A model generated the notes under the pieces. It was not told where the DNA came from and did not search any database. It was given only the letters and a program-made list of their open reading frames with translations. Positions 1-27,019 of a stretch of DNA of 38,153 nt are shown here, in pieces. This DNA is from an uncultured Sandaracinus sp. (lineage in GTDB: Bacteria; Myxococcota_A; Polyangia; Polyangiales; JADJQN01): assembly GCA_903896985.1 (NCBI GenBank), contig CAIUAC010000251.1, forward strand, positions 1-38,153. Direction: 5' to 3'. Made by a program: the position numbers and the translations under genes. Each line of letters opens with the position of its first letter. Within the stretch, counting starts at the first letter, position 1.

Positions 1-2114
1 CCATGCCGCTTGCCCCCCGCCATGTACGAGACCTGCCGCGAGAGATCCGGGCGATTGTCGAGAAACCACTGCATTCTCTTGCGAAAACCGGGCAACGACG
101 CGAGCAGTTCGTCGTCGAGCACGGCGACGCCGAACAGCGGAATGATCCCCACCATCGACCGAATTCGCATCGGCTCGATGTGCTGCTCGCCCGCCTGCTC
201 CCCGATCAGCAATTGATCGTAGTAGAACCCGTCGCGCTCGTCCCAGAGTCCGCTGCCACCGTGCGTGTTCATCGCGTCCGCGATGTGCACGAAGTGCTCG
301 AAGAACTTCGACGCGACGTCCTCGTAAGTCGGGTCCTCCCGCGCCAGCTCCAGCGCGATCGACAGCATCGTCGTGCAATAGAACGCCATCCACGCCGTGC
401 CGTCCGCCTGCTCGAGCCGTCCGCCCGTCGGCAGAGGCTTGCTTCGATCGAAGATCCCGATGTTGTCGAGCCCGAGGAACCCTCCGCCGAAGAGGTTGTT
501 CCCCTCAGCATCCTTCCGATTCACCCACCAGGTGAAGTTGAGCAAGAGCTTGTGAAACACCCGCGCGAGGAACTGCCGATCCCGCGCCCCCTTGGGCCCA
601 GTCAGCTTGTAGACGCGCCACGCGGCCCACGCGTGCACGGGCGGGTTCACGTCCCCGAGGTTCCACTCGTAGGCTGGGAGCTGCCCATTCGGGTGCATGT
701 ACCACTCGCGCAAGAACAGGATCAGCTGGTCCTTCGCAAAGCCAGGATCGATGTTGGCGAAGGGGATCATGTGGAACGCCAAATCCCACGCTGCGAACCA
801 GGGATACTCCCACTTGTCCGGCATGGAGATCACATCGCGAGTCGCGACGTGCTTCCACTCTCGATTGCGCCCCTTCAGCCGCGCAGGCGGCGGCGCCGGA
901 TGCGCGGGGTCGCCAGCGAGCCACTCCCCGACGTTGTAGTGAAAGAACTGCTTCGTGAAGAGCAGCCCCGCATACGCCTGCCGCGCGACGTTGCGCTCGT
1001 CCTCGGTCAACTTCGGCGGCAGTCGCGCCGCATAGAACGCGTCCGCGTCCGCGCGGCGCTCCGCGAAGATCGCGGCGAAACCCGCGCCGAACGGCGCGAA
1101 GTCGGCGCCCTCGCAGAGGCTCGCCTCGGTCAGCCGCAAGTCCACCACCGCACGCCCGCGCGCAGGCACCTCGAGCACATGGTGCGCCGCGCACTTCGTG
1201 CCCTCGGCTTCGGCGGCGAGCACGCCCGGCGTGCGCGAGACGATGTGCGCGTGAAACGCGTCCTTCACGGGCCCCTTGTTGGGCACTCCGTAGAGCACTT
1301 GAGTGTTCGACTCGTTCTCCGTGAAGAGCAGCGGCACCTCGGCGCCGTCAGCCTGCGGCGAGACGAAGAATCGATACGTCCCGAGGCTCTCGTGCTCCGC
1401 GGACACGACTCCCAGCGACGTCCGCCGCAGCGAAGGTCGCTTGGTATAACCCTCGCTCGAGCGCCCCCAGCTCCAGGTGTTGCGAAACCAGAGCGTCGGC
1501 AGCAGATGCAGCTTCGCTGCGTCGGGCCCGCGGTTCTCTACCGTGAGCCGAATCAAGAGGTCGTTCGGCGCGCCCTTCGCATACTCCGCCGTGACGTCGA
1601 AATACCGCCCATCGTCGAAGATGCCAGTGTCCTCGAGGTCGTACTCGAGGTCTCCGCGCCCACGCTCGCGGTTGACCCGCAGCAGCTCCTCGTAGGGGAA
1701 CGCCCGCTGCGGATACTTGTAGAGCGCGCGCTGATACGAGTGCGTCGGCGTCGAGTCGAGATAGAAGTACGCCTCCTTCACGTCCTCGCCGTGATTGCCC
1801 TCCGGCCCCGAGAGCCCAAACAGGCGCTCCTTCAAGAACGGGTCGCGCTCGTTCCACAGCGCGAGGCCAAAGCACAGCCGTCCCTGCCGGTCGCAGAGGC
1901 CGAGCAGCCCGTCCTCGCCCCAGCGATAGGTGCGACTCCGCGCGTGCTCGTGCGGGAAGTACCGCCAAGCGTCCCCGTCCGCAGAGTAGTCCTCGCGCAC
2001 GGTGCCCCACTGCCTCTCCGAGAGGTAAGGGCCCCAGCGCTTCCAGTTGCTCTCTCGACGACCGTCTTCCGCGAGCCGTCGAGACTCACGATCCAGCTGG
2101 CTCCCCGGCGACAT
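1..2114 (-). CDS. Glucosidase-like glycoside hydrolase (GH63 / MGH1-like), C-terminus cut by window edge
   Basis: Reverse-strand reading from the ATG at 2114 gives 704 residues without a stop before the window ends. After a short charged N-terminus comes the hallmark start of the bacterial 'glucosidase' family, [18 protein letters not shown] (about residues 24-41), followed by [11 protein letters not shown]-type and [12 protein letters not shown] motifs and the [12 protein letters not shown] motif. Near the cut end it reads FLDNRPDL-like sequence, also typical. Family members are roughly 880-900 residues long, so about 180 residues are probably missing. They have an (alpha/alpha)6-barrel fold related to GH63 glucosidases and mannosylglycerate hydrolases; the natural substrate is usually unknown. 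An in-frame GTG lies 6 codons upstream, but the ATG fits the family better. It lies 102 bases downstream of the ferritin-like gene, with a hairpin between them, so it is probably a separate unit. Family assignment is firm; substrate is not. Confidence 0.85.
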
Positions 2115-2136
2115 GGGCAGCGACGGTAACACGCCG

Positions 2137-2160
2137 AGGCCGCGCGCTTCCGCACGGCCT
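2137..2160 (-). terminator. Candidate terminator hairpin after the nuo/kor operon
   Basis: A 10-bp stem (AGGCCGTGCG pairing with CGCGCGGCCT, one G-U pair) closes a 4-base loop, 57 bases beyond the stop of the ferritin-like gene at 2217. There is no U-tract after it, so intrinsic termination is uncertain. It could also be an mRNA-stabilising 3' structure. It lies within the leader of the glucosidase gene. Confidence 0.35.
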
Positions 2161-2216
2161 TTCGGGAGTCACCTCGCCCCACGCCCCCTCAGGAGCCGCT
2201 GCGTCGTCCCCGCCGC

Positions 2217-2747
2217 CTACTGACTGACAGGCTCGTCGCCGTAGTCCTCGGGCTTCGCCACGGGGTCCGGCGGCAGCTTGTCGAGCTGGGCTTGCACGAG
2301 ATTCTGGTGCTCGATCTCGTCGAGGCGCAGGGAGTCGAAGAGCGCGCGAACCGCGGGGTCCGACGCGCTCGGCATCGCCCCGACGAAGAACGCGTGCGCC
2401 TTCTGCTCGGCGCGCAACGCGACCTCGAGCGCCTGCCGCAGCGACATGAACGCGCGCGCCTCGTCGTACTCGGGCGCCTCGATGTCGAAGATCATGTCGC
2501 GCGTGACGGTCGAAGGCTCGCGCCCGTAGAGCACGCGGCGACGCTCGGCGAGGTCCGCCCGGTGCTTCGCCTCGTTCTCGACCATGAAGCGGAAGAACTT
2601 GGCCGCCTCCGGGGTGCGGTGTTGCTCGAGCTGCTCGGCGAGCTCCTCGTAGCGCTCCTTCGCCTCCTCCTCGACGAGGATGGCGAGGTCGAGCGCGTCA
2701 CGCAGCGAGAGCTTGCTGAAGTCGATGCCCTGCACGTTGGTGGTCAT
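2217..2747 (-). CDS. Rubrerythrin-like ferritin-fold diiron protein, last gene of the nuo-kor operon
   Basis: A 176-residue, nearly all-helical protein with the ligand pattern of rubrerythrin/ferritin-like diiron domains: Glu26-28 with Tyr33 in helix 1, E59-x-x-H62 (ENEAKH), E114, and E144-x-x-H147 (LDEIEH). It has no cysteine, so the rubredoxin domain of true rubrerythrin is absent. The ATG at 2747 has a good ribosome site (GAGGAG, 7 bases upstream). The gene starts only 15 bases after korB. Proteins of this kind handle iron or reduce peroxide; here a likely role (inference) is to protect the oxygen-sensitive iron-sulfur and thiamine enzyme KorAB, or to manage iron for cluster assembly. Diiron fold is well supported, exact reaction is not. 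Confidence 0.75.
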   Translation of the reverse strand: MTTNVQGIDFSKLSLRDALDLAILVEEEAKERYEELAEQLEQHRTPEAAKFFRFMVENEAKHRADLAERRRVLYGREPSTVTRDMIFDIEAPEYDEARAFMSLRQALEVALRAEQKAHAFFVGAMPSASDPAVRALFDSLRLDEIEHQNLVQAQLDKLPPDPVAKPEDYGDEPVSQ

Positions 2748-2762
2748 GGCGTGTCTCCTCGC

Positions 2763-3635
2763 TCAGCGCTGGACGAACATGTCGAGGATGCGGTCGCGCG
2801 GGACCTTCGTCGCCAGCTCCGCCTGACGCCCGCGGAACAGCGCGTCGTACGTCGGGGGCGGCGTCGGGTTCCGGTAGAACACGCCCGTGTAGAGCTCCTC
2901 GCCGTAGTGCGACGCGAGCTCGAACGCGCCCATGCGGTTCGCCGGGTCGTGCCCGACGCTCGCGAGCGACTTCATCTGCGAGCGATGCGCCTTCACCTGC
3001 TGCGTCTCCTGCCCGTAGGTGACGCACGGCGACTGAATGTTGACGAAGGAGAAGCCCGGATAACGAATGGCCTCCTCGATCACCGACGCCATCCCCGCCA
3101 TGTCGGCGGGCGTCGCCTGCGCGACGAAGCCTGCCCCGTACGAGAGCAAGTAGAGCAGCGGATTGACCGGCTGCTCGAAGCTGCCGTACGTCGAGGTCAC
3201 GGTCTTGAGGCCACACGGCGAGGTCGGCGAGAGCTGCCCCTTGGTGAGCCCGTAGATCTGATTGTCCATCACGATGTAGGTGATGTCGGGATTGCGCCGG
3301 ACCGCGTGCGCGACGTGTCCCCCGCCGATCGAGAAGCCGTCCCCGTCGCCGCCCGCGCAGAGCACGAGCAGGTCGGGATTGGCCATCTTGATGCCCTGCG
3401 CGATGGGCAGTGAGCGCCCGTGCACGCTGTTGAAGCCGTACGCCGTCGTGTATCCGGGGATGCGACTCGAGCAGCCGATTCCCGAGACGAACGCGATCTC
3501 GTGGGGCGGACGCCCGACGCCCGCGAGCGCCCGGTAGATGGCCTGCACGACGCCGAAGTCACCGCAGCCGGGACACCAAATGGGCTTGAGGTCGGACTTG
3601 AAATCCTTGGCCACCAGAAGCGGATTCGTGGTCAT
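2763..3635 (-). CDS. korB: 2-oxoacid:ferredoxin oxidoreductase beta subunit (2-oxoglutarate type)
   Basis: A 290-residue thiamine-pyrophosphate and iron-sulfur subunit. It shows the cluster cysteines CPGCGD (C21, C24), GIGCSSR (C55) and a fourth Cys in QSPCVTYG (about 205), and the thiamine/Mg motif GDGDGFSIGG (from D97). With KorA it carries out oxidative decarboxylation of a 2-oxoacid with CoA, giving acyl-CoA, CO2 and reduced ferredoxin. The start ATG (3635) overlaps the korA stop as ATGA, so the two are translationally coupled. No separate ferredoxin-domain subunit is encoded, as in the two-subunit KorAB enzymes of aerobes such as mycobacteria. 2-Oxoglutarate is the usual substrate of this KorAB class, but pyruvate or other oxoacids cannot be excluded from sequence. 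Confidence 0.9.
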   Translation of the reverse strand: MTTNPLLVAKDFKSDLKPIWCPGCGDFGVVQAIYRALAGVGRPPHEIAFVSGIGCSSRIPGYTTAYGFNSVHGRSLPIAQGIKMANPDLLVLCAGGDGDGFSIGGGHVAHAVRRNPDITYIVMDNQIYGLTKGQLSPTSPCGLKTVTSTYGSFEQPVNPLLYLLSYGAGFVAQATPADMAGMASVIEEAIRYPGFSFVNIQSPCVTYGQETQQVKAHRSQMKSLASVGHDPANRMGAFELASHYGEELYTGVFYRNPTPPPTYDALFRGRQAELATKVPRDRILDMFVQR

Positions 3636-5458
3636 TGCGTCACTCCTGCGCTGGCTGCTGCACCGCGAACTTGGGCCGGAGCGCTCGCGAGCTTCATCAG
3701 CTCGTCCGCCACCTCACGAGGCTGGAACGGGTTGGCGCCGTTGCGCGTCATCTGCCGCACGCCGCGCGGCACATCGACGAAGCTGCGCAGGATCCGATAG
3801 AGCTGCCCTTGATGCGAGAGCTCGACGACGAGCCCCACGCGCACACCCGCGAAGAAGTCGTCGTAGACCTCCTCGGCGATCGGGTAGATCAGATACGGCA
3901 CGAGCAGCTTGGCCCGCACACCCGCGGCGCGCGCGATGGCGAGCGCCTCGTGACACACGCCGGCGACCGAGCCCCAGGCGATCATCGCGACGTCCGCGTC
4001 CACATCGCCCTCGACGGCGAAGAGATCGCGCCGCTGCTTGAGCGGGTCGAGCTTGCGGAAGCGCTTCTCGTTCATGAGCTTGTGGAGCGCGCCGCTGCCC
4101 GTCGGGTCACCGTGCTCGTTGTGCTCGATGCCGGAGGCGAGGTAATTGCCGCCAGCCATGCCGGGGTGGCTGATCGGGCTGATGCCCGACTCCGTGAGGC
4201 GGAAGCGGTTGTAGCTCTCGAGCTCGACGGCGGTCGGCTTCAGCCGGTCGATGATCTTGAACTGGCTGGTGTCGATCGGGTCCGCGGTCTCCTTGCGCTG
4301 GCCGATCTCCTGGTCCGACAGGATGATCACCGGCGTCTGGTATTCCTCGGCGATGTTGAACGCCTCGACCGTGATCCGGAAGGTGTCCGCGACGGTCGTC
4401 GGCGCGAGGATCGGCCGAAGCACATCGCCGTGCCCCGAGTACGCCGCCTGAAAGAGGTCGCTCTGCTCGGGCTTGGTCGGCAGCCCCGTCGAGGGGCCAC
4501 CGCGCTGCACGTTGACGAGCACCAGCGGGAGTTCCGCGATGGTCGCGAGGCCGAGCATCTCGGTCTTGAGCGCCATGCCCGGCCCGGAGGTCGCCGTCAT
4601 CGACTTCTTGCCCGCGTACGAGGAGCCAATCGCGACACCGATGCTCGCGATCTCGTCCTCGGCCTGCATCACGGTGCCGCCGTACTTCCAGATCTCGCGC
4701 GTGAGGAACTGCATGATCTCGGTCGACGGCGTGATCGGATAGCCGCCAAACGCCTCGCAACCCGCGAAGATCGCGGCCGCCGCGCACATATCGTTGCCAT
4801 CGAGCAGCATCTTGCCGCCGGTGTTCTCGAGCGGGCGCTTGAGCACGCGCGGCACGCGCAGCGGGTGCGACTTCGCGTACTCGGTGCCGACGCGGAACGC
4901 CTCTTCGTTGGCCGCGACGAGCTCCGCGCTCTTCTTGGCGAAGCGCTTGCGGATGCCCCGCACGATGCCTTCCGGCGCGATGTCGAACCAGCCCGCGAGG
5001 AGCCCGAGGACGATGGTGTTCTTGGCCATGTCCGTGCCGGCAGCCTTCCGGGCGAGCTCGGCGATCGGCACCGCGAAGACGTCGGTCGGCACGACGCCTA
5101 CGATCGGGAGCTTGTCCGGCGCAACGCCGGTCTTCTCCTCGTAGATCACCACGGTCGACGGGCCGACGGGCAGCTCCGCACCGAAGCGCAGGAAGTCCTC
5201 CCAGTTGAGCGCGACCGCGACGTCGAGTACGCCGCCTGGATTGTAGATACGGTCGACCGCGATGCGCACGCGACAGGAGGACTCGCCGCCGCGGATCTGA
5301 GAGCCGAAGCTCTTGGTCATGATCGCGTGATAGCCCTGGCTCGCCGCCGCCGCGATGAGGGACTCACCCGCGCTGACGATGCCATCGCCGCCCGACCCGG
5401 CCATGCCGATGGTCAGGTCGCTCGAGTGACCGCTGCCTGAGACCGAAGGAATGCTCAT
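3632..5458 (-). CDS. korA: 2-oxoacid:ferredoxin oxidoreductase alpha subunit with fused N-terminal gamma domain
   Basis: 608 residues. Residues about 15-190 form the gamma domain (GMAGSGGDGIVSAGE and an RGGESS segment). Residues about 210-600 are the pyrimidine-binding alpha part with the YPITPSTEIMQFL motif, a conserved AEDEIASIGVAIGSSYAG segment and TSGPG. This gamma-alpha fusion is the KorA layout of two-subunit enzymes. The reading frame stays open far upstream into nuoN, but the true start is the ATG at 5458: it gives the family N-terminus and overlaps the nuoN stop as ATGA. The enzyme works in the cytoplasm with KorB, making reduced ferredoxin in the TCA cycle. Coupling to nuoN suggests its ferredoxin is oxidised by the complex I encoded just upstream. 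Confidence 0.92.
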   Translation of the reverse strand: MSIPSVSGSGHSSDLTIGMAGSGGDGIVSAGESLIAAAASQGYHAIMTKSFGSQIRGGESSCRVRIAVDRIYNPGGVLDVAVALNWEDFLRFGAELPVGPSTVVIYEEKTGVAPDKLPIVGVVPTDVFAVPIAELARKAAGTDMAKNTIVLGLLAGWFDIAPEGIVRGIRKRFAKKSAELVAANEEAFRVGTEYAKSHPLRVPRVLKRPLENTGGKMLLDGNDMCAAAAIFAGCEAFGGYPITPSTEIMQFLTREIWKYGGTVMQAEDEIASIGVAIGSSYAGKKSMTATSGPGMALKTEMLGLATIAELPLVLVNVQRGGPSTGLPTKPEQSDLFQAAYSGHGDVLRPILAPTTVADTFRITVEAFNIAEEYQTPVIILSDQEIGQRKETADPIDTSQFKIIDRLKPTAVELESYNRFRLTESGISPISHPGMAGGNYLASGIEHNEHGDPTGSGALHKLMNEKRFRKLDPLKQRRDLFAVEGDVDADVAMIAWGSVAGVCHEALAIARAAGVRAKLLVPYLIYPIAEEVYDDFFAGVRVGLVVELSHQGQLYRILRSFVDVPRGVRQMTRNGANPFQPREVADELMKLASAPAQVRGAAASAGVTQ

Positions 5459-7011
5459 TGAGAATCGTCTCCTGGTGAAACCGGCGCTGGAGTGCCCGTC
5501 GAGAGCGAGTTCGAAAGTGAGGCGCCTGCTTCGCTGGCGCTCTCGTGGAGCGGCGCCGGCCAGAGACCGAGCCCCGCCGCGGCAAGCAGACAGAGCAAGA
5601 TGGCCGCCCGCAGCGCTCCGCCGACGCGCGGCGCAGCAGCCTGAGTCGGCTCGACCATGTATGCCGCCCGCGCGACTTGCAGATAGTAGAACAAGCCGAC
5701 GACCGCGAGCACGGAGCCGAGCACGACGAGCCCGACGAGGCCCGCGCGATAGGCCGCGAGGAAGATGAAGAGCTTCGCCCAGAAGCCGATCATGAACGGG
5801 ATGCCGGCGAGCGAGAGCAAGAACGCCAGCAGCGAGAGCCCGAGGAACGGCGAGCGCCGCGAGAGCCCCGCGAGCCCCGCGAGGTCGTGCGTGCCGCCAT
5901 CCGCCGCGACCGCGTGCAGCACGAGGAACGCGCCCATGTTCGAGAAGACGTACGCGGCCAGGTAGAACGCGGCCGTCGACAGCCCCTCCGCGTTTCCGGT
6001 CGCGATCGCGAGCAGCACATAGCCCATCTGCGCGACGCCCGAGAAGCCGAGCAGACGACGCACATCCGTCTGCGGCAGCGCGAGCAGGTTGCCGATGGTC
6101 ATCGACGCCGCGGCGAGCACGGCGATGGCGAGCGTCCAGTGCCCTGGATGTCCGCCCGTGCCGAGCAGGAACACGACGACGAGCGCCGCGATGCCGCCGG
6201 CCTTCGGCGCCACGGAGAGGAACGCGACGAACGGAGTCGGCGCGCCCTCGTACGTGTCCGGGACCCACATATGGAAGGGGACGACGCCGATCTTGAACGA
6301 GAGCCCCGCGAGCACGAGCATCATCCCGACGACCGTGATCGGCGCGGGCGTCTCGGCGCCGAAGAGCCCGGCGAGGCGCGTGGTCCCAGCCATGCCGACG
6401 ACGAGCGACAGACCGAACAGCGTGATCGCCGTGCTGGTCGCGCCGACGAGATAGAGCTTGATCGCGGCCTCTGCCGCGGGCGCGTGGGGTGCCTTCGCAG
6501 CCTCCGCCGCGTCGAACGCGCGCGCAGGGTCGGACACCTTGCGCGTCTTCGCCGCGTCGGTCTTCGCGTACGCCGCGAGGATGTAGAGCGGGATGCCCAT
6601 CAGCTCGAAGGCGACGACGAGCAGCAGCAAGTCGCGCGCGCCCGGCACGATCATCATGCCGACGATGCTGAAGAGCAGCAGCGTGTAGTACTCGCCCTGC
6701 CGTCTAGGCGCGTGCGCCTCGAGGTGTTCCATCGCGCCGAGGACGCCCAGCGCTCCGGCGACGAGGAACAAGCGCGCGAAGAAGGTCGTCCACGCGTTGC
6801 CGACGTAGGCGCCGTGCGCCGCAAGGCCGGAGGTGTCGACGACGAACGAGGCGACGAGCACGCCGCTGAGGAGCGCCACGGTCAGGCCGCCGAGGACCTT
6901 GCCGCGCCGCGCGCTGTTGGGCGGCAGCGCGAGGTCCGCTAGGAGCACGACGAGCGCCGCCGCGGTGACGGCGAGCGGAAGCACCAGAGGACGCAGCGTA
7001 TCGAAGGTCAC
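5455..7011 (-). CDS. nuoN: NADH-quinone oxidoreductase subunit N (antiporter-like membrane subunit)
   Basis: 518 residues with about 14 membrane segments, one of the three Mrp-antiporter-like proton-pumping subunits of complex I. The conserved glutamate in TM5 is seen in LLLVVAFELMGIPLYIL, and the MWVPDTYEGAPTP segment and the PLYSKL-region equivalent with LAGIPFMIGFWAKLFIF are present. A variable polar loop rich in Ala and Lys (about residues 145-175, TDAAKTRKVSDPARAF) separates two membrane segments. The ATG at 7011 overlaps the nuoM stop (ATGA), and the stop overlaps korA. The short hydrophilic C-terminus after the last helix (about 25 residues) is Ser/Pro-rich. Confidence 0.95.
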   Translation of the reverse strand: MTFDTLRPLVLPLAVTAAALVVLLADLALPPNSARRGKVLGGLTVALLSGVLVASFVVDTSGLAAHGAYVGNAWTTFFARLFLVAGALGVLGAMEHLEAHAPRRQGEYYTLLLFSIVGMMIVPGARDLLLLVVAFELMGIPLYILAAYAKTDAAKTRKVSDPARAFDAAEAAKAPHAPAAEAAIKLYLVGATSTAITLFGLSLVVGMAGTTRLAGLFGAETPAPITVVGMMLVLAGLSFKIGVVPFHMWVPDTYEGAPTPFVAFLSVAPKAGGIAALVVVFLLGTGGHPGHWTLAIAVLAAASMTIGNLLALPQTDVRRLLGFSGVAQMGYVLLAIATGNAEGLSTAAFYLAAYVFSNMGAFLVLHAVAADGGTHDLAGLAGLSRRSPFLGLSLLAFLLSLAGIPFMIGFWAKLFIFLAAYRAGLVGLVVLGSVLAVVGLFYYLQVARAAYMVEPTQAAAPRVGGALRAAILLCLLAAAGLGLWPAPLHESASEAGASLSNSLSTGTPAPVSPGDDSQ

Positions 7012-8552
7012 GGCTGCCTCACGATCGCGCTCGCGAAGTCGCGCAGGTACTCGATGGTCGCTGGGTCGATCAGATCGAGCAGCAATCTAGGCCAGACGCC
7101 GAACACCACGATGGCGACCGCCAACACGATGGGCGCGGCCCACTCGACGCCGCGCGCATCGTAGAGGTCGTGGAAGTGCTCGCTCGGGCCGGGGCCCCAG
7201 AAGATCGCGCGGCTCGCGCGCAGCACGTAGATCGCGGTGACGAAGGCGCCGAGGATCGCGGGGATGGTCCACCAGGCGTGCGAGCCGTGCCACGCGCCGA
7301 GGAAGACCATCAGCTCAGCGGCGAAGCCCGCCGTGCCCGGCAGGCCGAGCGACGACAGCATCGCGAGCGTGAAGAACGTCGCGACGCCCGGCATGATCGT
7401 GCCGAAGCCGCCCATCTTCGCGATGATGCGGGTGTGCGCGCGCTCGTAGACGAGCCCGACGAGCGAGAACAAGAGCGCCGTCATCACGCCGTGCGCGAAC
7501 ATCTGGAAGATCGCGCCGTTCCAGCCGGTCGCGTTGAGCGTCGCGGCGCCGAGCATGACGACGCCCATATGACTGACCGACGAGTACGCGACGATGTACT
7601 TGAGGTCCTTCTGGCTCATCGCGCACATCGCGCCGTAGAGGATGTTGACGACCGCGACCGCGCCGACGGTCGGCGCCCAGTACGCGGCGCCCACGGGCAG
7701 CAGCATCATGCCGATGCGGATCACGCCGAACGCGCCCAGCTTCATCAGCACGCCGGCGTGCAGCATCGACACCGCCGTCGGCGCAGCGGCGTGCCCGTCG
7801 GGCGACCAAGTGTGGAAGGGGAACACGCCGCCGAGCGAGCCAAAGCCCATCCACAGCAGCGGGAAGACGATGATCTGCGTCGTGCGCGCGTAGGGCACCG
7901 CGCCGAGCACGCCGAGGTTGAACGTCGTCGCGCCGGCCCCCTGATAGAGCACGAAGATGCTGACGAGGATCGCGGCTGAGCCGAGCAGCAGCATCACCGT
8001 CAGCTTCATCGCGGCGTACTCGCGCCCACCGACGTCGAAGATCTTCCACACGAAGCGGAAAGGCCCCGCCTCCGGGACGACGTTGCTCGAGCCCCAGATG
8101 CCGATGAGCAGGTACATCGGCAGAACGGCGATCTCGTAGAACAAGAAGAAGATCAGCAGATCCTGGCAGACGAAGACGCCGAAGACGCCCGACACCAGGA
8201 CCAGCAGGTAGATGAAGAACTCTTTGTCGCGACGCTGAACGGTGAAGCTCGCGAGCACCGCGGCGAAGATGATCACGCCGGTCAGCAGCACGAGCGAGAC
8301 ACCCCAGCCATCGATCGCCAGGCTCAGATGGACTCCGAGCGAGGGGATCAGCGGCAAGTCGAAGGGCATCTGCAGCCCGCCCACGTGCCGATCGTAATGC
8401 ACGGCGGCGAGCACCGAACCTGCGAAGGACACCGTCGCGCCCGCCATGGAGACGACGCGCGTCGCGATCGCATACCGCGAAGGGATCGCGAGGAGGATGA
8501 GCGCCGCCACTGCGGGCGCGGCGACGATGACCGGGAGAAGCGCAGCGATCAC
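7008..8552 (-). CDS. nuoM: NADH-quinone oxidoreductase subunit M (antiporter-like membrane subunit)
   Basis: 514 residues, about 14 membrane segments. The TM5 glutamate is in FFLFYEIAVLPMYLLIGIWG, and the FHTWSPDGHAAAPTAVSMLHAG segment is the usual signature of NuoM. The reading frame continues upstream into nuoL in another frame's shadow, so the start must be chosen: the GTG at 8552 overlaps the nuoL stop as GTGA and begins directly before the first hydrophobic segment (IAALLPVIVAAPAVAALILL). The gene ends by overlapping nuoN. It forms part of the proton-pumping membrane arm. Confidence 0.94.
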   Translation of the reverse strand: MIAALLPVIVAAPAVAALILLAIPSRYAIATRVVSMAGATVSFAGSVLAAVHYDRHVGGLQMPFDLPLIPSLGVHLSLAIDGWGVSLVLLTGVIIFAAVLASFTVQRRDKEFFIYLLVLVSGVFGVFVCQDLLIFFLFYEIAVLPMYLLIGIWGSSNVVPEAGPFRFVWKIFDVGGREYAAMKLTVMLLLGSAAILVSIFVLYQGAGATTFNLGVLGAVPYARTTQIIVFPLLWMGFGSLGGVFPFHTWSPDGHAAAPTAVSMLHAGVLMKLGAFGVIRIGMMLLPVGAAYWAPTVGAVAVVNILYGAMCAMSQKDLKYIVAYSSVSHMGVVMLGAATLNATGWNGAIFQMFAHGVMTALLFSLVGLVYERAHTRIIAKMGGFGTIMPGVATFFTLAMLSSLGLPGTAGFAAELMVFLGAWHGSHAWWTIPAILGAFVTAIYVLRASRAIFWGPGPSEHFHDLYDARGVEWAAPIVLAVAIVVFGVWPRLLLDLIDPATIEYLRDFASAIVRQP

Positions 8553-10384
8553 GGTAGCAACCCCCAAGCCGCCAGGGCGATTGCGCCCAGCACGACGGCG
8601 AAGACGTAGTCCTGGGCGTTGCCGGTCTGCACCCTGCGGAGCGCGCGCCCACCCGCGACGGCGGACCAGCCGAGGAAGTTCATGAGCCCATCGATCAGGT
8701 AGCGGTCGATCCAGCCGAGCACATCGGCGACGACCAGGAGCACGCGGCGATAGCCGACCTCGTACACGCGATTGACTGCGCGCGTCGCGACGAGGCGCTC
8801 GAGCGGCGCGAGCGCGCTGACGACCAGCGTCCCGCGGCCGTACACCACCCACGCGAGCGCGAAGCCCCCCAACCCGAGCGACGCGGCGAGGATCGGCACG
8901 ACGCCGACGAGATGCAGCTCATAGGTCGCGCCCGAGAGGTGCGCGAGCGGCGCGGCGACCCAACCGAGCGCGACCGACGGCACGGTGAGCACGAGCAGCG
9001 GCACGAGCAGCGAGCCGCCCGACTCGTGCGCATGCCCCGCGTGACCGCGCGCCTCCCCGAAGAACGCGAGGAACACCACGCGGCCCATGTAGAAGGCGGT
9101 GAGGAACGCCGTCGCCATCAGCGCGCCGAATGGCACCCAGCCGTACCGGCCTTCGACCGATGCGAGCACCAGGTCCTTGCTGAAGAAGCCCGCGAGGCCA
9201 GGGATACCTGCGAGCGACATCGCGCCGATGATGAAGGTGGTCGCGGTCACCGGCATGCGTCGGCGCAAGCCGCCCATGTCGGCGAGCTCGTTCGAGTGCA
9301 CCGCGTGGATGACGCTGCCAGCCGCGAGGAAGAGCAGCGCCTTGAAGAACGCGTGCGTCGCGAGGTGGAAGAACCCGCCGAACACCGAGCCCGCGCCGAG
9401 CGCCGCGACCATGTAGCCGAGCTGCGAGCAGGTCGAGTACGCGAGCACCTTCTTGATGTCGGTCTGCACGAGCGCGAGGCACGCAGCGAAGAGCGCCGTC
9501 CCGGAGCCCACCAGCAGCATCACGTCGCGCGTCGCGGGGGCGTGCGCGAACAGCGGGTTGGCGCGAACGATGAGGAACACGCCCGCCGCCACCATCGTCG
9601 CGGCATGGAGCAGCGCCGAGACGGGCGTCGGCCCCTCCATCGCGTCCGGCAGCCAGATGTGGAGCGGGAACTGCGCGGACTTTCCGACGACGGCGAAGAA
9701 GAGGAGCCCGCTGACCGTCGTCGCGGTCGCCGCAGTCACGGCGGCGTCCCAGCGGAACGTGCCGGTCGTCTTGTAGAGGACCATCAGCGCCATGAGGAAG
9801 CCCATGTCCGCGAGCTTCGTGATCCAGAACGCCTTCAGCGCGGCCTGCCCGGCGCTGGGCTTCTGATAGTAGAAGCCGATCAGCAGATAGCTCGTCGCGC
9901 CGACCAGCTCCCAGCCCGCGAACAGCTGGAGCAAGTCCGGAGCGAGCACGAGCAAGTTCATGCTGAACAGGAAGAGCGCGTGATACGCAAAGTAGCGCCC
10001 GAACGCGGGCGGCTTCTCGTCGTGCATGTAGCCGAGGGAGAAGACCTGCACGCAGGTCGCGACCACGCAGACGACCAACAGCATGGTCGCCGAGACGCCG
10101 TCGAGACGCACCCCGAAGTCGCCGACGCCGGCGCCGTTGATCTGCAGCCACGAGGCCATCCAAACATGGCTGCCGCCCTCACGGAGTTGGGTGACGAGGA
10201 GGGTGACCGCCGCGGCCGTCGCGAGGAGTGACGCCGTGAGCGTCACCCACGACGCGGGCGCGCCACGCCTGCGGAGCGCCGGCGCTGCGGCGAGCACGAG
10301 CGCAGCGACGGCGGGAGCGAAGAGCGCGACGAACGCCGGAATGGGCGCGGCTTCGAGCGGAAGCGCACCGACGGGGAGACTCAT
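8549..10384 (-). CDS. nuoL: NADH-quinone oxidoreductase subunit L (distal antiporter-like subunit)
   Basis: 611 residues. The TM5 glutamate is in LFAGWELVGATSYLLIGFYY; HIWLPDAMEGPTPVSALLHA and the LAYSTCSQLGYM region are characteristic of NuoL. The C-terminal part contains the long lateral (piston) helix region and ends with a final membrane segment (DYVFAVVLGAIALAAWGLLP). ATG at 10384 overlaps the nuoK stop (ATGA), and the stop overlaps the nuoM GTG start. Distal proton-pumping subunit of complex I. Length is normal for the family. Confidence 0.95.
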   Translation of the reverse strand: MSLPVGALPLEAAPIPAFVALFAPAVAALVLAAAPALRRRGAPASWVTLTASLLATAAAVTLLVTQLREGGSHVWMASWLQINGAGVGDFGVRLDGVSATMLLVVCVVATCVQVFSLGYMHDEKPPAFGRYFAYHALFLFSMNLLVLAPDLLQLFAGWELVGATSYLLIGFYYQKPSAGQAALKAFWITKLADMGFLMALMVLYKTTGTFRWDAAVTAATATTVSGLLFFAVVGKSAQFPLHIWLPDAMEGPTPVSALLHAATMVAAGVFLIVRANPLFAHAPATRDVMLLVGSGTALFAACLALVQTDIKKVLAYSTCSQLGYMVAALGAGSVFGGFFHLATHAFFKALLFLAAGSVIHAVHSNELADMGGLRRRMPVTATTFIIGAMSLAGIPGLAGFFSKDLVLASVEGRYGWVPFGALMATAFLTAFYMGRVVFLAFFGEARGHAGHAHESGGSLLVPLLVLTVPSVALGWVAAPLAHLSGATYELHLVGVVPILAASLGLGGFALAWVVYGRGTLVVSALAPLERLVATRAVNRVYEVGYRRVLLVVADVLGWIDRYLIDGLMNFLGWSAVAGGRALRRVQTGNAQDYVFAVVLGAIALAAWGLLP

Positions 10385-10680
10385 CCTCGAAGCTCCTTCG
10401 CAGCATCCGTACGAGTGTCGCCGTAGGTTCGATAGAGAAGCAGCACCAGCGCCAAGCCGACGGCGACCTCAGCCACCGTGATCGCGAGGGCGAAGAGCGC
10501 GAACAGTTGCCCGGTCGCGCCTCCGCGGAAGTGCGAGAAGGCGACGAAGCTGAGGTTGGCGGCGTTGGCCATCAGCTCCACGGACAGCAGGATCGCGACC
10601 GCATGGCGGCGCGTCAGCAGGCCATAGACGCCCACGGAGAACATCGCCGCAGCGAGCAGGATGGAGGTCGACAGCGTCAC
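10381..10680 (-). CDS. nuoK: NADH-quinone oxidoreductase subunit K
   Basis: 99 residues with three membrane helices. The two buried glutamates important for proton transfer are present at E35 (SVELMANAANL) and E71 (ITVAEVAVGLALVL), matching E36 and E72 of the E. coli protein. Start and stop overlap nuoJ and nuoL as ATGA. The last dozen residues are polar and probably cytoplasmic. Confidence 0.95.
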   Translation of the reverse strand: MTLSTSILLAAAMFSVGVYGLLTRRHAVAILLSVELMANAANLSFVAFSHFRGGATGQLFALFALAITVAEVAVGLALVLLLYRTYGDTRTDAAKELRG

Positions 10681-11249
10681 GAGGACGCCTCCGTTCTGGC
10701 GTTCTGGTCGAGCGCGCCATGGTCGCGGCGCCGCGCGATGACGACGGCGCCGATGATCGCTGCGAGCAGCAGCAGGGAGAGCACTTCAAACGCGAGCACG
10801 TGGGTGGAGAGAAGCTCGAAGCCGATCGCCTGCGTGGTCGCTTGGCTGCTGGCGGCGAGCGCCTCGACCGCGGGAGGACCTGCCGTCGGAGCCACCGGCG
10901 CGTGCTCCAGGTCGCTGCGCATGACGGCTGCCGCGATGACGCCGAACAGCACGGCTGCGGTCAGCGCGCCGCGCCACGGGGACCCGCTGGCTGCCGGCAC
11001 CGAGAGGCCGTCGTGCCGCCGCGTCAACATCACGCCGAAGACCATCAGCGTGACGACGCCGCCGACGTACAACAGCACCTGCACGCCGGCGAGAAACGAC
11101 GCGCCGAGCATGCCGTAGAGCACCGCAGTGTCGATGAGCGTGACGCCGAGCCAGAGGACGGCGTGCACGAGGTTCGGAGAGCGGACGACCAGGATCGCGG
11201 AGAGCAGCGCAATGGCGGCTACCACGCCGAACCCGATGGCGACGGTCAC
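10677..11249 (-). CDS. nuoJ: NADH-quinone oxidoreductase subunit J
   Basis: 190 residues with five predicted membrane segments. NPNLVHAVLW-like (here SPNLVHAVLWLGVTL) and VLLYVGGVVTLMVFGVMLT segments are the family signatures; the latter holds the pi-bulge helix. A periplasmic-side Pro/Ala-rich loop of about 30 residues precedes the last helix. The frame is open well upstream, but the GTG at 11249 (overlapping the nuoI stop as GTGA) gives the normal N-terminus TVAIGFGVVAAIALLSAI. The gene overlaps nuoK at its end. Confidence 0.93.
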   Translation of the reverse strand: MTVAIGFGVVAAIALLSAILVVRSPNLVHAVLWLGVTLIDTAVLYGMLGASFLAGVQVLLYVGGVVTLMVFGVMLTRRHDGLSVPAASGSPWRGALTAAVLFGVIAAAVMRSDLEHAPVAPTAGPPAVEALAASSQATTQAIGFELLSTHVLAFEVLSLLLLAAIIGAVVIARRRDHGALDQNARTEASS

Positions 11250-11980
11250 TTGGACTCCTCTTTCGTGGCCGGCGCCGGAGCCGCGGGCGCGACGGCGGAG
11301 GTCTCTGCGACGGGCGGCGCAGCCAGCGCAGCCGCGACGACGGGCGCGCTCGCGGGCTCGGCCGCAGCCACCGGAGCCACGACGACGGGCGCGCTCGTGG
11401 GCTCGGCTGCGGCTAGCGCGGCAGCAGGCGCAGCCTCGGCCGCTGCGGGCGCCGCGGCCGCGACAGGCTTCGCGGGCTTCGGCTTCTTCTCTTCCTTGGG
11501 AGCCTCTTGCATCCCCATGAGGCGCGTGCCGGTACCCCACGAGGCGGGCTTGTCCTTCTCGTGCGCGTAGAGCTTGTCCATCGTGAGGACGAGCTCTTCG
11601 CGCGAGTACGCGGGGATATCCGCCACCTGCGTCATGATCAGCGCGTCCGTGGGACACACCTGCACGCAAAGCTCGCAGGAGATGCACGCGGTCGTGTCGA
11701 GCACGAAGTCCGAGGCCCAGCCGCGCTTCTTGCCGGTGACCTTCGACTCCGCCTTCGGCCCCTGAGTGACGGTGATGACGGTCGAAGGGCAGATGCGCTC
11801 GCACTGCAGACAACCGATGCAGAGCTCCTCGCCGTGCTCGTCGTGGAGCAGCGCGAAGCTCGTGCGGTAGCGCTCCGGGCGCTTACGGATCTCGGTCGGG
11901 AACTGCACCGTCACGGGCGTGCGCAGCACTTGCCGCATCGTGGTGAAGAGCGCGCGTGACGCGTCGATCAGGTGCCGCAT
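11246..11980 (-). CDS. nuoI: NADH-quinone oxidoreductase subunit I with a long Ala/Pro-rich C-terminal tail
   Basis: 244 residues. Two [4Fe-4S] ferredoxin motifs are intact: C54-x2-C57-x2-C60-x3-C64 and C99-x2-C102-x2-C105-x3-C109 (clusters N6a and N6b). The ATG at 11980 shares one base with the nuoH stop (TGATG). Typical NuoI proteins end near residue 150-180; this one continues with a lysine-rich stretch (EEKKPKPAKP) and about 80 residues of Ala, Pro, Val and Glu. That tail contains a 15-residue unit present twice (AAAEPTSAPVVVAPV, then AAAEPASAPVVAAAL), encoded by a 45-bp imperfect direct repeat. The tail resembles flexible linkers of lipoyl-type enzymes. In this operon without NuoEFG it may sit where the NADH module would dock; this is inference. 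Confidence 0.93.
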   Translation of the reverse strand: MRHLIDASRALFTTMRQVLRTPVTVQFPTEIRKRPERYRTSFALLHDEHGEELCIGCLQCERICPSTVITVTQGPKAESKVTGKKRGWASDFVLDTTACISCELCVQVCPTDALIMTQVADIPAYSREELVLTMDKLYAHEKDKPASWGTGTRLMGMQEAPKEEKKPKPAKPVAAAAPAAAEAAPAAALAAAEPTSAPVVVAPVAAAEPASAPVVAAALAAPPVAETSAVAPAAPAPATKEESK

Positions 11981-12957
11981 CAGAGGAACTCCGGGAAGAG
12001 CTGAACCCAAAGCGCCGCGGCGAGCACCAGCAGCACGGACGCCGGGACGAGGTAGCGCCAGCACATCGTCAAGAGTTGGTCAGAGCGGAACCGCACGAGC
12101 GACCAGCGGATCCAATACACCGACACGAAGAGCACCAGCGTCTTCGCGACCATCCAGTGCAAGCCGGGGGCGAACGGGCCGTCCCAGCCGCCGAGGAACA
12201 GGGCCGCCGCGACCGCTGAGCCGACCAGCGTGTGCACGTACTCCGCCATGTAGAACAGCGTGAACTTGATGCCGGTGTATTCGGTCGTGATCCCGCCGAC
12301 GAGCTCGCTCTCGGCCTCGGGGATGTCGAACGGAATGCGGTTCGACTCGGCCAGCATCGCCATGAAGAAGATGCCGAACGCGGGGAGCCCCGGCACGATC
12401 GGCCAGAGGGCGAACATATGATGCCCGACCTGCCACCGCACGATGTCGCTCACGCTGAGCGAGCCAGCGAGGATCACCGGGACCATCGCGGCGAGCACGA
12501 GCGGGATCTCGTAGGAGATCGCCTGCGCGACGGAGCGCATCCCGCCGAGCAGCGCGAACTTGTTGTTGCTCGCCCAACCGCCGAGGAAGATCGCGATCGT
12601 GGTGAGCGCGCCGAGGCCGAGGATGTAGAGCACGCCGACGTCGAGGTCCGACGCGATCACGTCCGGGCTGAACGGGATGACCGCGGCGACTCCGAGCGCG
12701 CAGAACGCGGCCAGCACCGGCGCGAGGTTGAACAGCGCCCGGTCCGCCTGCGCCGGGATGATGTCTTCCTTCTGCAGGAGCTTGAGCACATCCGCGACCG
12801 CTTGCAGCAGCCCGAAAGGCCCAACGATCGTCGGCCCAAGGCGAGTCTGCAGACGCGCGGCGAACTTGCGTTCACCCCAGATCCACAGCCCCGAGGTGGT
12901 GAGCACGACGGCGAGGATGAGCACGCCGTAGACCGCTCCGTGTACGAGCCCGCTCAT
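11980..12957 (-). CDS. nuoH: NADH-quinone oxidoreductase subunit H
   Basis: 325 residues, eight or nine membrane segments; the subunit that forms the quinone-entry site between the two arms of complex I. Recognisable parts are ERKFAARLQTRLGPTIVGPFGLLQAVADVLKLL-type sequence at residues 29-62 and PFDIPEAESELVGGITTEY (about 205-225), which carries the conserved acidic residues of the E-channel. ATG at 12957 overlaps the nuoD stop; the stop shares one base with nuoI. Length and motifs are normal. Confidence 0.96.
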   Translation of the reverse strand: MSGLVHGAVYGVLILAVVLTTSGLWIWGERKFAARLQTRLGPTIVGPFGLLQAVADVLKLLQKEDIIPAQADRALFNLAPVLAAFCALGVAAVIPFSPDVIASDLDVGVLYILGLGALTTIAIFLGGWASNNKFALLGGMRSVAQAISYEIPLVLAAMVPVILAGSLSVSDIVRWQVGHHMFALWPIVPGLPAFGIFFMAMLAESNRIPFDIPEAESELVGGITTEYTGIKFTLFYMAEYVHTLVGSAVAAALFLGGWDGPFAPGLHWMVAKTLVLFVSVYWIRWSLVRFRSDQLLTMCWRYLVPASVLLVLAAALWVQLFPEFL

Positions 12958-14156
12958 CGGTCGACCTCCCCCATGATCGGGTCCAGCGAGCCGAGGATCG
13001 TCACCGCATCGCTCAGCGTCGCGCCTGGGAGCAGATACGGCAGCGCCGACAGCGAGTGCAGGCTCGGAGGCCGGAACTTCAGGCGGTAGGGGCTCGCATT
13101 TCCCTCGCCCCCGCCCGCGATGACGAACGTCCCGAGCTCACCGCGCGGCGTCTCGATCGCCGCGTACGCCTGGCCCGAGGCGATCTTCACCTGCCCGACG
13201 AGCTTGATGGGCCGGTAGCTGCAAATGGGGCCTTCAGGCAGCCCCTCGAGCAGCACCTCCACGAGGCGGATGCTCTCGCGCACCTCTCGCACGCGGACGA
13301 GCACCCGCGCGAGGCTGTCGCCACCCTGCTCGACGATGACGTTCACCGGCACTTCGTCGTACGCGTGGAACGGCGCGTCGCGGCGCAGATCGTGGTCGAC
13401 ACCGCAAGCGCGCAGGTTCGGACCCGTGACCCCGAGCTCGAGCGCGAGCCGACCATCGAGCACCCCGACGCCGCGCGTGCGCTCGATGAAGATGCTGTTG
13501 TCGATGCTCATCGAGTCATACTCGGGGAGCCGCGCGAGGATCGTCTTCATCGCGGACCGCACATGCGCCGCCCACTCAGGCGTCACGTCGTGGCGATTGC
13601 CGCCGATCGTGTGCGTGTTGTAGTGGAAGCGCGCGCCGGTGACCTCTTCGAAGAGGTCCATGATGAGCTCGCGCTCGCGGAAGCAGTGGATGAAGAGCGT
13701 CGAGCCGCCGCCGAGGGCACCGCCGAGATCGATCGAGAGCGTGCCGAGCGCGAGCAGGTGCGACGCGATGCGCTGCAACTCCGCGAAGAGCGAACGCAGC
13801 CAGCGCGCCCGCCGCGGGACCTCGACCCCGAGGAGCTTCTCGAAGGCGACGTTGAGCGCCTGCTCGCTCGTCATCGGAGCGACGTAGTCGTGCTTGTCGA
13901 CGATGGGCGTCTGCTGCACGTACGTGAGCCGCTCCATCAGCTTCTCGACGCCGCGGTGCAGATAGCCCGCGAAGGGCACCGCCTTCACGATGACCTCACC
14001 GTCGAGGTAGAGGTCGATGCGGAAGACGCCGTGGGTCGAGGGATGCTGCGGCCCGAGATGCAGCAGCATCAGCTCGCCCTCCGCCTCGAACGCGGCCATG
14101 TCGAGGTGCGGGTTGGGCCACTTGAGCGTGTGAGTGGGAGTCTGCATCGAGGTCAT
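12954..14156 (-). CDS. nuoD: NADH-quinone oxidoreductase subunit D (49-kDa subunit)
   Basis: 400 residues, the quinone-site subunit of the peripheral arm, related to the large subunit of [NiFe] hydrogenases. It contains [15 protein letters not shown] (about residues 26-40, with the quinone-site His), KHDYVAPM, and ends in the canonical IMGEVDR. The usual RIGG loop reads [10 protein letters not shown], a variant. The start at 14156 gives an N-terminus of normal length and overlaps the nuoC-domain stop as ATGA; the frame upstream is open but is a shadow of nuoBC. The gene is separate from nuoC, unlike the CD fusion of enterobacteria. Confidence 0.95.
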
Positions 14157-15394
14157 CGCCAAGGGGCCCGGTGGGTATCCGCGGCGTAATCTTTGCGCAA
14201 CGGATGACCTTCCCAGTCGTCGGGCATCATGATCCTGCGCAAGTCGGGGTGACCCGAGAACTTCACGCCCAGGAGATCCCACTGCTCGCGCTCCTGCCAG
14301 TCGGCTCCCGCGAACACCTCGGTCAGCGTCGGCAGGCTCTGACCGGGCTCGAGCCGCACACTCCACGACGCGAGCTGCGAGGCTCGCCCCACGGTGCGCA
14401 GCGCGAACGCCACCTCGAAGTGCTCCGTCTCGCTCGCATCGGCACCCGCACGACCGCGCCCGGCGAGCCAGTGGCTCGCGGCGATGTAGACGAGCTGCTT
14501 GTAGCCGCGCTCTTGAAGCGCGCGGGCGAGCGCCACGTGCCGGTCTGCGGAGATCAGCGGAGGCGCGTCCTTCGGAAAGGCCAGCGCGCCGTGCGCGGCA
14601 AAGAGGGACTCGAGCCAGCTCGCGGGCGGCGTCGTGCCCTCCAATGCCGGAGCCGGGCTGAGCGCCTCGCTCGCGGCTGAGCTCCCCGTCGCCTCCGGAC
14701 GCTCCACCGCGCTGTCCGCGGTCTTCATCGCGTCAGCCGTCTGCTGCTCGTTCGTCTCCGCTTCACGCTCTGGGTCGTTCAAGCGCGGAATCGACGGCTT
14801 GGTGCTCGCGAGCAGCGCCGGTCGCGGCTCGGGAGTCGCGAACTGACCGAGGCGCTGGAGGCGCACCTTCTCCTGCAGGCGGAGCAGGCCGTGCATCAAC
14901 GCTTCGGGGTTCGGCGGGCAGCCCGGGATGTAGACATCGACCGGCAGGAACGTGTCGATACCCGGCACCACTGGGTACAGGTCCCGATAGAAGTCGCCCG
15001 AGATCGCGCAAGAGCCCATCGCGATCGCCCACTTCGGCTCGGGCATCTGATCCCAGAGCTTCTTCACGCGGGGCGCCATCTTCACGGTGATCGTGCCCGC
15101 GACGACCATGACGTCAGCCTGACGCGGCGTCGCCCGGACGATCGTGCCCATGCGATCGAGGTCCACACGGCTCGCCGCCGCGGCCATCAGCTCGATGCCG
15201 CAGCAGCTCGTCGCCATCGGGAAGACCCACAGCGAATTCCGCAGCCCCCAGGTGAGCAGCGCGTCGAGCGAGGTGACCCCGAGCGAGAGCCCGGGCACGC
15301 TGAGCAGCTGCTTGTAGAGGGGGTGCTCGTACGTGCGCTCGCGCTCGTCGCCCGGGCCGACGACCGGCAGGGAGATCTTGCCGTCTATTGCCAC
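14153..15394 (-). CDS. nuoBC: Fused NADH-quinone oxidoreductase subunits B and C
   Basis: 413 residues in one uninterrupted frame. Residues 1-185 are NuoB with all four ligands of cluster N2: C64-C65 (SCCGIEL), C129 (GSCAISG) and C159 (PGCPPNPEA). A polar linker rich in Glu, Thr, Ser and Ala covers about 190-255. Residues 255-413 are NuoC (30-kDa subunit) with its signature in [19 protein letters not shown] and the end segment GHPLRKDY. Subunits B and C are normally separate genes, so this is a real fusion unless the linker hides a frameshift; I see no internal stop. I chose the GTG at 15394 as start: it lies behind GAAAGGG, overlaps the nuoA end by 10 bases, and gives a normal NuoB N-terminus. 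Confidence 0.92.
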
Positions 15395-15744
15395 TTCAGC
15401 GCGCCCTTTCGCATCCCGTAGAGCCAGCCGATCATGAGCACCAGCACGAAGGCGACGACCTCGATGAGCGTCGAGGTGCCGAGCGAGCGGATGACCGTGC
15501 TCCACGGAAACAGGAAGACTGCCTCCACGTCGAACAGCACGAAGAAGAGCGCCACGAGGTAGTAGCGCGCGTGGAACTGCATCCACGCCATGCCCTCCGG
15601 CTCCTCACCGCACTCGTAGGGGCGATGCTTGAGCGGCGACTCGACTCGTGCGCGCACCCGCAGGATGCGCCCGGCGATGAGGAGGCTCATCACGATCCCG
15701 AACGTGACGCCGAGGAAGCTGAGCGCCGCGATGCCCTGATTCAT
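15385..15744 (-). CDS. nuoA: NADH-quinone oxidoreductase subunit A, first gene of the nuo-kor operon
   Basis: 119 residues, three membrane helices. The conserved loop YECGEEPEG (Cys45) near the quinone site and the helix with [11 protein letters not shown] are intact. The ATG at 15744 is chosen because it sits directly before the first hydrophobic segment; upstream codons in frame are not NuoA-like. The ribosome site is weak (GCAGG next to the start). It begins an operon of 13 genes on the minus strand running to 2217; the promoter should lie in the 393-base region to its right. Confidence 0.94.
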
Positions 15745-17322: not shown

Positions 17323-17528
17323 TGTTCGGGTCCCCCCTTGCGGGCAGCCGCGCGGTGCACAGTTGGCACCCCATGGTGGTGCGGCTCGTCGACCCGACCC
17401 GTTCCCGCGACGATGAAAGCACCCTTCGCAGCCCGCATGACGCGCGACCGCACTCGCGGAGCGTATCCCCTCGCGCAGCGACCGCTTCACGCCTGCGGTG
17501 CTGTCTCGCGATTCGCGGAGGGAGCGGC

Positions 17529-21639: not shown

Positions 21640-21765
21640 GACTGTCCGGGTGCTCCGAGTCGACGCCCATGGAGCGGTCCCATCGACCCGCGCACGCTGC
21701 CGAAGGCCTTGCACCATGATGTCGGATGTGTATGTGGTTCCAGAATTGCCCCGGAGGAGCGCCTT

Positions 21766-21822
21766 ATGACAACGCAAGGGTGGTGTATGCAGGCGCTCGC
21801 GGCGGAAGATGGGCTCTGCTGA
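21766..21822 (+). CDS. 18-residue leader ORF coupled to the octaheme cytochrome
   Basis: ATG at 21766 lies 6 bases behind a near-perfect ribosome site (GGAGGAG). The ORF encodes MTTQGWCMQALAAEDGLC and its stop shares one base with the cytochrome start (TGATG at 21820-21824). The cytochrome itself has no good ribosome site, so it probably depends on translation of this ORF. The peptide has two cysteines and one tryptophan but no run of one amino acid as in classic attenuators. Too short to assign a function; the ribosome site and overlap are what support it. Confidence 0.55.
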   Translation: MTTQGWCMQALAAEDGLC

Positions 21823-23961: not shown

Positions 23962-26928
<2,967 letters not shown>

Positions 26929-27019
26929 GCGGGCATCCGGCGGGCGAAGGGGAGACAGATGGGCGTCCAACGCCGGACGAACCAGCATAGGTTGACGACA
27001 CCATCTGGGTCAACAGCGC

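Follow-up and report, generated by a model that had tools for sequence, protein, structure and literature searches.

A complex I without NADH module shares an operon with a two-subunit 2-oxoacid:ferredoxin oxidoreductase in Myxococcota

Complex I of 11 subunits, devoid of the NADH module and with ferredoxin as the proposed donor, has been described before (PMC11238625, PMC9386147), and the coexistence of two nuo clusters is also known (PMC9386147). Here, we analyzed a contig of 38,153 nucleotides from an uncultured Sandaracinus sp. (CAIUAC010000251.1, whose whole length is referred to as the window), in which genes for the same 11 subunits (Nuo) are followed in one operon by korA and korB, coding for a two-subunit 2-oxoacid:ferredoxin oxidoreductase (KorAB), and by the gene of a diiron protein (FerL). 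In the closest described systems, Desulfitobacterium hafniense and an MBNT15 bacterium with 14- and 11-subunit clusters, the NADH module is likewise missing and ferredoxin has been proposed as the donor, but the donor enzyme was inferred from expression or left open, whereas here KorAB belongs to the same overlapping operon and the link is repeated in relatives.

A parallel is offered by Campylobacter and Helicobacter, where a 2-oxoglutarate oxidoreductase (Oor) likewise feeds a complex I without NADH-binding subunits. Their Oor is built from several gene products and is encoded away from nuo, whereas KorAB consists of two genes beside nuo. The Campylobacter route from Oor through flavodoxin to complex I is established (PMC4257069), and this type of complex retains nuoG (PMC11238625); by contrast, there is no NuoG in the operon described here, and the NuoG of the source metagenome-assembled genome (MAG) sits with a second nuo set on another contig (C856). 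The first-pass annotation of the window had drawn this parallel, which holds for the function but not for the type of complex. As for KorAB, the same gamma-alpha fusion and beta subunit, with one 4Fe-4S cluster and no ferredoxin domain, are found in MmOGOR (6n2n), Mycobacterium tuberculosis Rv2455c-Rv2454c, and StOFOR (PMC5020499, PMC2773412). The KorAB of the window is nevertheless from a distinct subfamily, often accompanied by a rubrerythrin-type neighbor, while the M. tuberculosis korAB operon has other neighbors (PMC2773412). Published proposals thus already cover a complex I devoid of NuoEFG, its occurrence alongside the 14-subunit form, and ferredoxin as its donor; what appears to be new here is the presence of kor in the nuo operon. 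No description of a kor-nuo operon was found in the open-access literature, which is no proof of novelty.

We consider it probable that the operon encodes a two-part electron-input system, in which KorAB would deliver electrons through ferredoxin to an 11-subunit, proton-pumping Nuo and from there to quinone, with FerL protecting KorAB. The operon runs from 15744 to 2217 on the minus strand, in the order nuoA, nuoBC, nuoD, H, I, J, K, L, M, N, korA, korB, and FerL, and ten of its junctions, read from the sequence, are overlaps of 1 to 4 bases: ATGA at nuoBC/D, nuoD/H, nuoK/L, nuoN/korA, and korA/korB; GTGA at nuoI/J, nuoJ/K, nuoL/M, and nuoM/N; and TGATG at nuoH/I. FerL follows korB after a gap of 15 bases. 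This order on a single strand and the ATGA coupling of nuoN-korA and korA-korB had been pointed out in the first-pass annotation and are borne out, as is the absence of nuoE, F, and G from the operon, in which there is no room for them, the whole span being occupied by assigned genes. No KorD ferredoxin-type subunit, ferredoxin gene, or flavodoxin gene was found in the operon either, and a promoter and terminator scan of positions 1900 to 6000 gave no signal above chance. Since the genes lie on one strand, overlap translationally, and keep their order in relatives, the arrangement is not due to chance.

All 11 subunits (NuoA, B, C, D, H, I, J, K, L, M, and N) are encoded, according to family models. 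Solved complex I structures can be aligned with NuoB and NuoI over the iron-sulfur cluster-binding motifs, and solved NuoL chains with NuoL across the antiporter domain. NuoD is of the quinone type; it aligns with Thermus NuoD, and the [NiFe] cysteine ligand pairs are absent from its sequence. In 35 nuo loci from other genomes, no NuoE, NuoF, or NuoG was found by tblastn. Besides two 4Fe-4S motifs, NuoI has a W(G/A)x(G/A)xxLxxMQ motif with an Ala/Pro-rich tail; in the clade (11246-11560 in the window, and relatives), the motif is conserved and the stretch that follows is variable and rich in Ala, Pro, and Lys. A role of this tail as a docking element for KorAB was rejected, as the motif and the tail are clade-wide and shared by Nuo loci that have no KorAB. 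Separately, NuoL- and NuoCD-like genes lacking the [NiFe] cysteine ligands were seen in complex-I-like clusters that resemble the Ehr type, one on contig C698 of the same MAG (L012, here also with a NuoH-like gene) and one in another genome (G033, L064 8845-12192), 3.4 kb from the kor cassette.

KorAB shows the features of the two-subunit enzymes, with a gamma-alpha fusion and a beta subunit that score over curated cutoffs, a YPITP motif, and the cluster cysteines of KorB, and the only family models matched above cutoff are of subfamily level and not substrate-specific. The nearest solved structures are 6n2n_A for KorA and 6n2n_B for KorB, which we take to be the 2-oxoglutarate enzyme of Magnetococcus (MmOGOR), a bacterium with a reductive tricarboxylic acid (TCA) cycle. 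In StOFOR1, mutations at Asp468 (alpha) and Lys49 (beta) abolished 2-oxoglutarate activity (PMC5020499). At the first of these positions, all 93 KorA sequences of the subfamily have Ile, and at the second, all 86 KorB sequences have Arg; the corresponding residues are Leu (alpha) and Arg (beta) in MmOGOR and Arg in Helicobacter pylori Oor. As these specificity residues are like those of 2-oxoglutarate enzymes, they favor 2-oxoglutarate as the substrate of KorAB, short of proof.

The last gene of the operon, called ferritin-like at first pass, is indeed present, but its product belongs to the rubrerythrin superfamily (PF02915), and no rubredoxin domain was seen. FerL residues E26, E59, H62, E114, E144, and H147 are invariant in 31 sequences, with a conserved Glu/ExxH ligand type, and the predicted structure is a helical bundle (mean predicted local distance difference test score, pLDDT, of 88) whose nearest solved fold is 2oh3, a protein of unassigned function. 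The three genes korA, korB, and FerL are kept together in most loci of the KorA subfamily, with the Verrucomicrobia loci lacking FerL. Because FerL accompanies KorAB even where nuo does not, we read it as a protector of KorAB, most likely shielding its oxygen-labile iron-sulfur clusters by removing nearby peroxide or oxygen. Ferriperoxin, a rubrerythrin-like protein without rubredoxin domain, is a peroxidase (PMC3317640), and FerL is alike in being a diiron protein without this domain. The diiron hemerythrins of Campylobacter jejuni protect Oor (PMC4257069), a likeness to FerL by type of protein.

The tie by gene order between KorAB and a complex I without NADH module, already claimed at first pass, recurs in relatives. 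In a sample of 145 genomes of the order, hits were split by identity into a high and a low group: KorA is 66 to 77% identical in 13 relatives and around 30 to 40% elsewhere, with a gap in between, while NuoD is 64 to 77% identical in one group and below 45% in the other. The neighborhoods fetched show that the high-identity KorA and NuoD groups are physically linked. A scan of GTDB contigs, from which 80 KorA-subfamily loci were kept, extended the subfamily to Myxococcota, Acidobacteriota, Planctomycetota, Binatota, and Verrucomicrobiota, with nuo linkage in Myxococcota-labeled loci, two deltaproteobacterial MAG contigs without phylum label, one Planctomycetota-labeled locus, and one Pseudomonadota-labeled locus.

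The comparison of operons gave 21 genomes in which the KorA subfamily (64 to 77% identity) is linked to the Nuo clade, in five arrangements. The cassette korAB-FerL follows nuoN in the window and in L062 and L066, and precedes nuoA in 12 loci (L082, L085, L088, L090, L091, L099, L104, L106, L115, L125, L133, and L134), with a spacing of 11 to 131 bases in 11 of them and of 387 in L099. In L164, the order is FerL-korAB, with the end of korB some 11 bases before nuoA; kor and nuo are divergent in L074 and convergent in L069, L070, L078, and L055. Two genomes were left out of this count, one in which both clusters reach contig ends, fitting the convergent form (G064), and one in which they are 18 kb apart (G033). 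L063 was dropped as a linked case, its nuoN being only 40% identical, 740 bases off, and hence perhaps part of another complex. In an even sample of 379 genomes from the phylum, with the KorA subfamily defined by an identity of at least 60%, the Nuo clade was found in 52 and the KorA subfamily in 8; both occurred in 6, and the two were linked in every one of these. No other flanking family was recurrent in at least 3 of 20 further Nuo loci.

Elsewhere, in Geothrix loci (L089, L095, and others), no nuo lies within about 10 kb of korAB-FerL. A search of two Geothrix genomes for sucA found none, and KorAB may be their main 2-oxoglutarate-oxidizing step. The flanks of the kor loci of Geothrix, Verrucomicrobia, and Binatia, with transporters, a glycosidase, and a trypsin-like protease, were not informative. 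One verrucomicrobial genome with a KorA of the subfamily (G151) has, elsewhere, a nuo cluster with two tandem nuoM-like genes (L154, 9458-12476), that is, a 2M-type complex I.

Phylogenies, for which branch support was obtained by SH-aLRT from quick searches only, point to repeated association. The KorA tree implies at least four changes of arrangement among the linked loci, and on the NuoD tree, the loci linked to the KorA subfamily fall in three separate places, with a fourth place (G190 and G215) linked to a different KorAB lineage. The latter is directly upstream of nuoA, 52 to 67 bases apart (L161 of G215, 1288-4568; L163 of G190, 3407-6695), and its KorA is approximately 31% identical to that of the window and 59 to 60% identical to the KorA of another genome in the order of the window. 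That two KorAB lineages were separately joined to one Nuo clade would hardly be expected unless KorAB and Nuo were functionally tied; KorAB may be one donor to the Nuo clade among others.

The source MAG (6.2 Mb in 1332 contigs, 86% complete, 2.7% contamination, Myxococcota) contains a second nuo set on two contigs, with nuoA, B, C, D, G, and H on C856 and nuoE, F, J, K, L, M, and N on C1239. NuoE, NuoF, and NuoG, confirmed by family models, are therefore found in this genome in the company of a second complex I, so that their occurrence does not count against the reading of the first-pass annotation, and both complexes coexist; identity between the two NuoD proteins is 37%. No nuoI belonging to the second set was recovered from the fragmented MAG, which was attributed to contig ends. 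Further NuoF-like genes are present as a NuoE-NuoF-like fusion on C260 and as a HoxF/HoxU-like pair on C884. The gene sucA, for the E1 component of 2-oxoglutarate dehydrogenase, was located on contig C333.

In the mechanism that we propose, KorAB would oxidize 2-oxoglutarate with coenzyme A (CoA) to succinyl-CoA and CO2 and pass low-potential electrons to soluble ferredoxin, from which they would enter Nuo at NuoI and reach quinone, via NuoB, at the NuoD/NuoB site. The conserved subunits NuoL, M, N, and H would pump protons, while FerL would clear peroxide or oxygen around the KorAB clusters. By textbook potentials, the drop to menaquinone is larger from ferredoxin reduced by 2-oxoglutarate than from NADH, and would be suited to a complete proton-pumping stroke. 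Because the genes of a 2-oxoglutarate dehydrogenase and of a 14-type complex I that includes NuoE, F, and G are also present, two routes would be available to the cell for the same TCA step, one through NADH (2-oxoglutarate dehydrogenase, NADH, and the 14-type complex) and one through ferredoxin (KorAB, ferredoxin, and the 11-type complex). Genomes with both routes suggest that respiring Myxococcota can switch this step between couplings of different energy yield. For many bacteria, it is still debated what supplies electrons to a complex I without NADH module; the genome evidence presented here names KorAB as a donor, and the relatives with Nuo only and those with Kor-linked Nuo provide a natural, built-in control set.

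Several observations weigh against this reading. The operon has no ferredoxin or flavodoxin gene of its own, and the second complex I, without a recovered nuoI, comes from a fragmented and slightly contaminated MAG. With sucA present, KorAB is dispensable for closing the cycle and represents therefore a parallel or alternative branch from 2-oxoglutarate to succinyl-CoA and not the sole route. Besides, 46 of the 52 sampled genomes with the Nuo clade lack the KorA subfamily, so other donors must serve Nuo, KorAB being a recurrent but not obligate partner, and the KorA-subfamily loci outside Myxococcota, such as those of Geothrix, are mostly without adjacent nuo. A complex "driven directly by the TCA cycle," as put at first pass, was in this respect an overstatement.

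Some of these points would fit other explanations. KorAB might act mainly on another 2-oxoacid, pyruvate or one derived from amino acids, coupling Nuo to general catabolism and not to the TCA cycle, as a 2-oxoglutarate dehydrogenase is already in the genome and the family models do not discriminate substrates; the Ile and Arg of all subfamily members, like the residues of MmOGOR and H. pylori Oor, and the two Geothrix genomes with KorAB that showed no sucA make this unlikely. The lack of a ferredoxin or KorD gene in the operon, the translational overlap of nuoN, korA, and korB, and the repeated colocation of kor and nuo could also be explained if KorAB docked on the peripheral arm of Nuo in place of NuoEFG, its own 4Fe-4S cluster reducing NuoI without ferredoxin. 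Such a 2-oxoglutarate:quinone oxidoreductase pump would be a TCA-cycle enzyme built into a proton pump, but we regard it as quite improbable, given that soluble ferredoxin serves the two-subunit KorABs found elsewhere (PMC5020499), that the NuoI tail occurs with or without KorAB, and that this kind of KorAB is missing for most Nuo of the clade. The KorAB-Nuo supercomplex considered possible at first pass is not supported by these data.

The system could also operate in reverse, the proton motive force lifting electrons from quinol to ferredoxin and KorAB carboxylating succinyl-CoA to 2-oxoglutarate. The reductive TCA cycle that the source of 6n2n, Magnetococcus, presumably has would agree with this direction. 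A ferredoxin-reducing reverse complex I has also been proposed for Nitrospina (PMC3578206). However, sucA and a 14-type complex I fit a respiring heterotroph, and we assign this direction a low probability; ATP-citrate lyase and carbon-fixation genes were not searched. It is about equally doubtful that kor and nuo are neighbors by shared regulation only, under low oxygen or iron for example, with Nuo fed by something else: numerous members of the Nuo clade have no KorAB alongside, and the diiron gene hints at an oxygen-related regulon, but there are at least four separate associations, which include convergent layouts without a common promoter and a non-orthologous KorAB. Finally, Nuo might borrow the NuoE, F, and G that the genome encodes in the second operon and be an ordinary NADH dehydrogenase, yet these subunits are accompanied by their own second NuoA, B, C, D, H, J, K, L, M, and N, and with such a low identity between the two NuoD, this is extremely improbable. 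The route from KorAB through ferredoxin to Nuo remains our preferred reading of the genes listed below.

Table 1. Genes of the nuo-kor operon in the window and the evidence for their assignment.
Gene	Positions	Strand	Evidence
nuoA	15385..15744	-	start ATG at 15744; NCBIfam NuoA models, E 1.6e-27; orthologs 60-70% identical head the nuo cluster in near relatives
nuoBC (NuoB-NuoC fusion, one open reading frame)	14153..15394	-	NuoB 205.9 bits, above cutoff; NuoC domain at residues 314-403; aligns with solved NuoB chains; start codon uncertain, nearest is GTG at 15394
nuoD (quinone-site subunit)	12954..14156	-	PRK06075, 393.7 bits (cutoff 360); best solved relative Thermus 2fug chain 4
nuoH	11980..12957	-	PRK06076.1-2, 329 bits (cutoff 305)
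nuoI	11246..11980	-	NuoI models, structure alignment, tail comparison
nuoJ	10677..11249	-	NuoJ models, E 1.5e-30
nuoK	10381..10680	-	PRK05715.1-2, 103 bits (cutoff 57)
nuoL	8549..10384	-	PRK06590.1, 569 bits (cutoff 556); aligned with solved NuoL chains
nuoM	7008..8552	-	TIGR01972, 433 bits (cutoff 264); start GTG at 8552 overlaps nuoL stop
nuoN	5455..7011	-	TIGR01770, 315 bits, E 8.7e-94, under the curated cutoff of 332.6; match in two stretches
korA (2-oxoacid:ferredoxin oxidoreductase, gamma-alpha fusion)	3632..5458	-	TIGR03710, 561.9 bits (cutoff 482.75); ATGA overlap with nuoN
korB (beta subunit; thiamine pyrophosphate, one 4Fe-4S)	2763..3635	-	TIGR02177, 267.7 (cutoff 261.9); ATGA overlap with korA
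FerL (rubrerythrin-type diiron protein)	2217..2747	-	PF02915, E 1.3e-14

Upstream of nuoA, the minus strand codes for a radical SAM/SPASM protein (16138-17490; TIGR04053), related to the heme b synthase AhbD. It was rejected as a member of the operon, being located approximately 390 bases upstream and not found beside the nuo genes of relatives. A run of multiheme c-type cytochrome genes (Cytochrome_C7, GSu_C4xC__C2xCH, and decaheme-like) extends over 17214-23900 of the plus strand, divergent from the nuo operon, and is followed on the minus strand (23962-26988) by a gene for a large TPR protein, the N-terminal part of which matches the myxobacterial type IV pilus protein SgmX.

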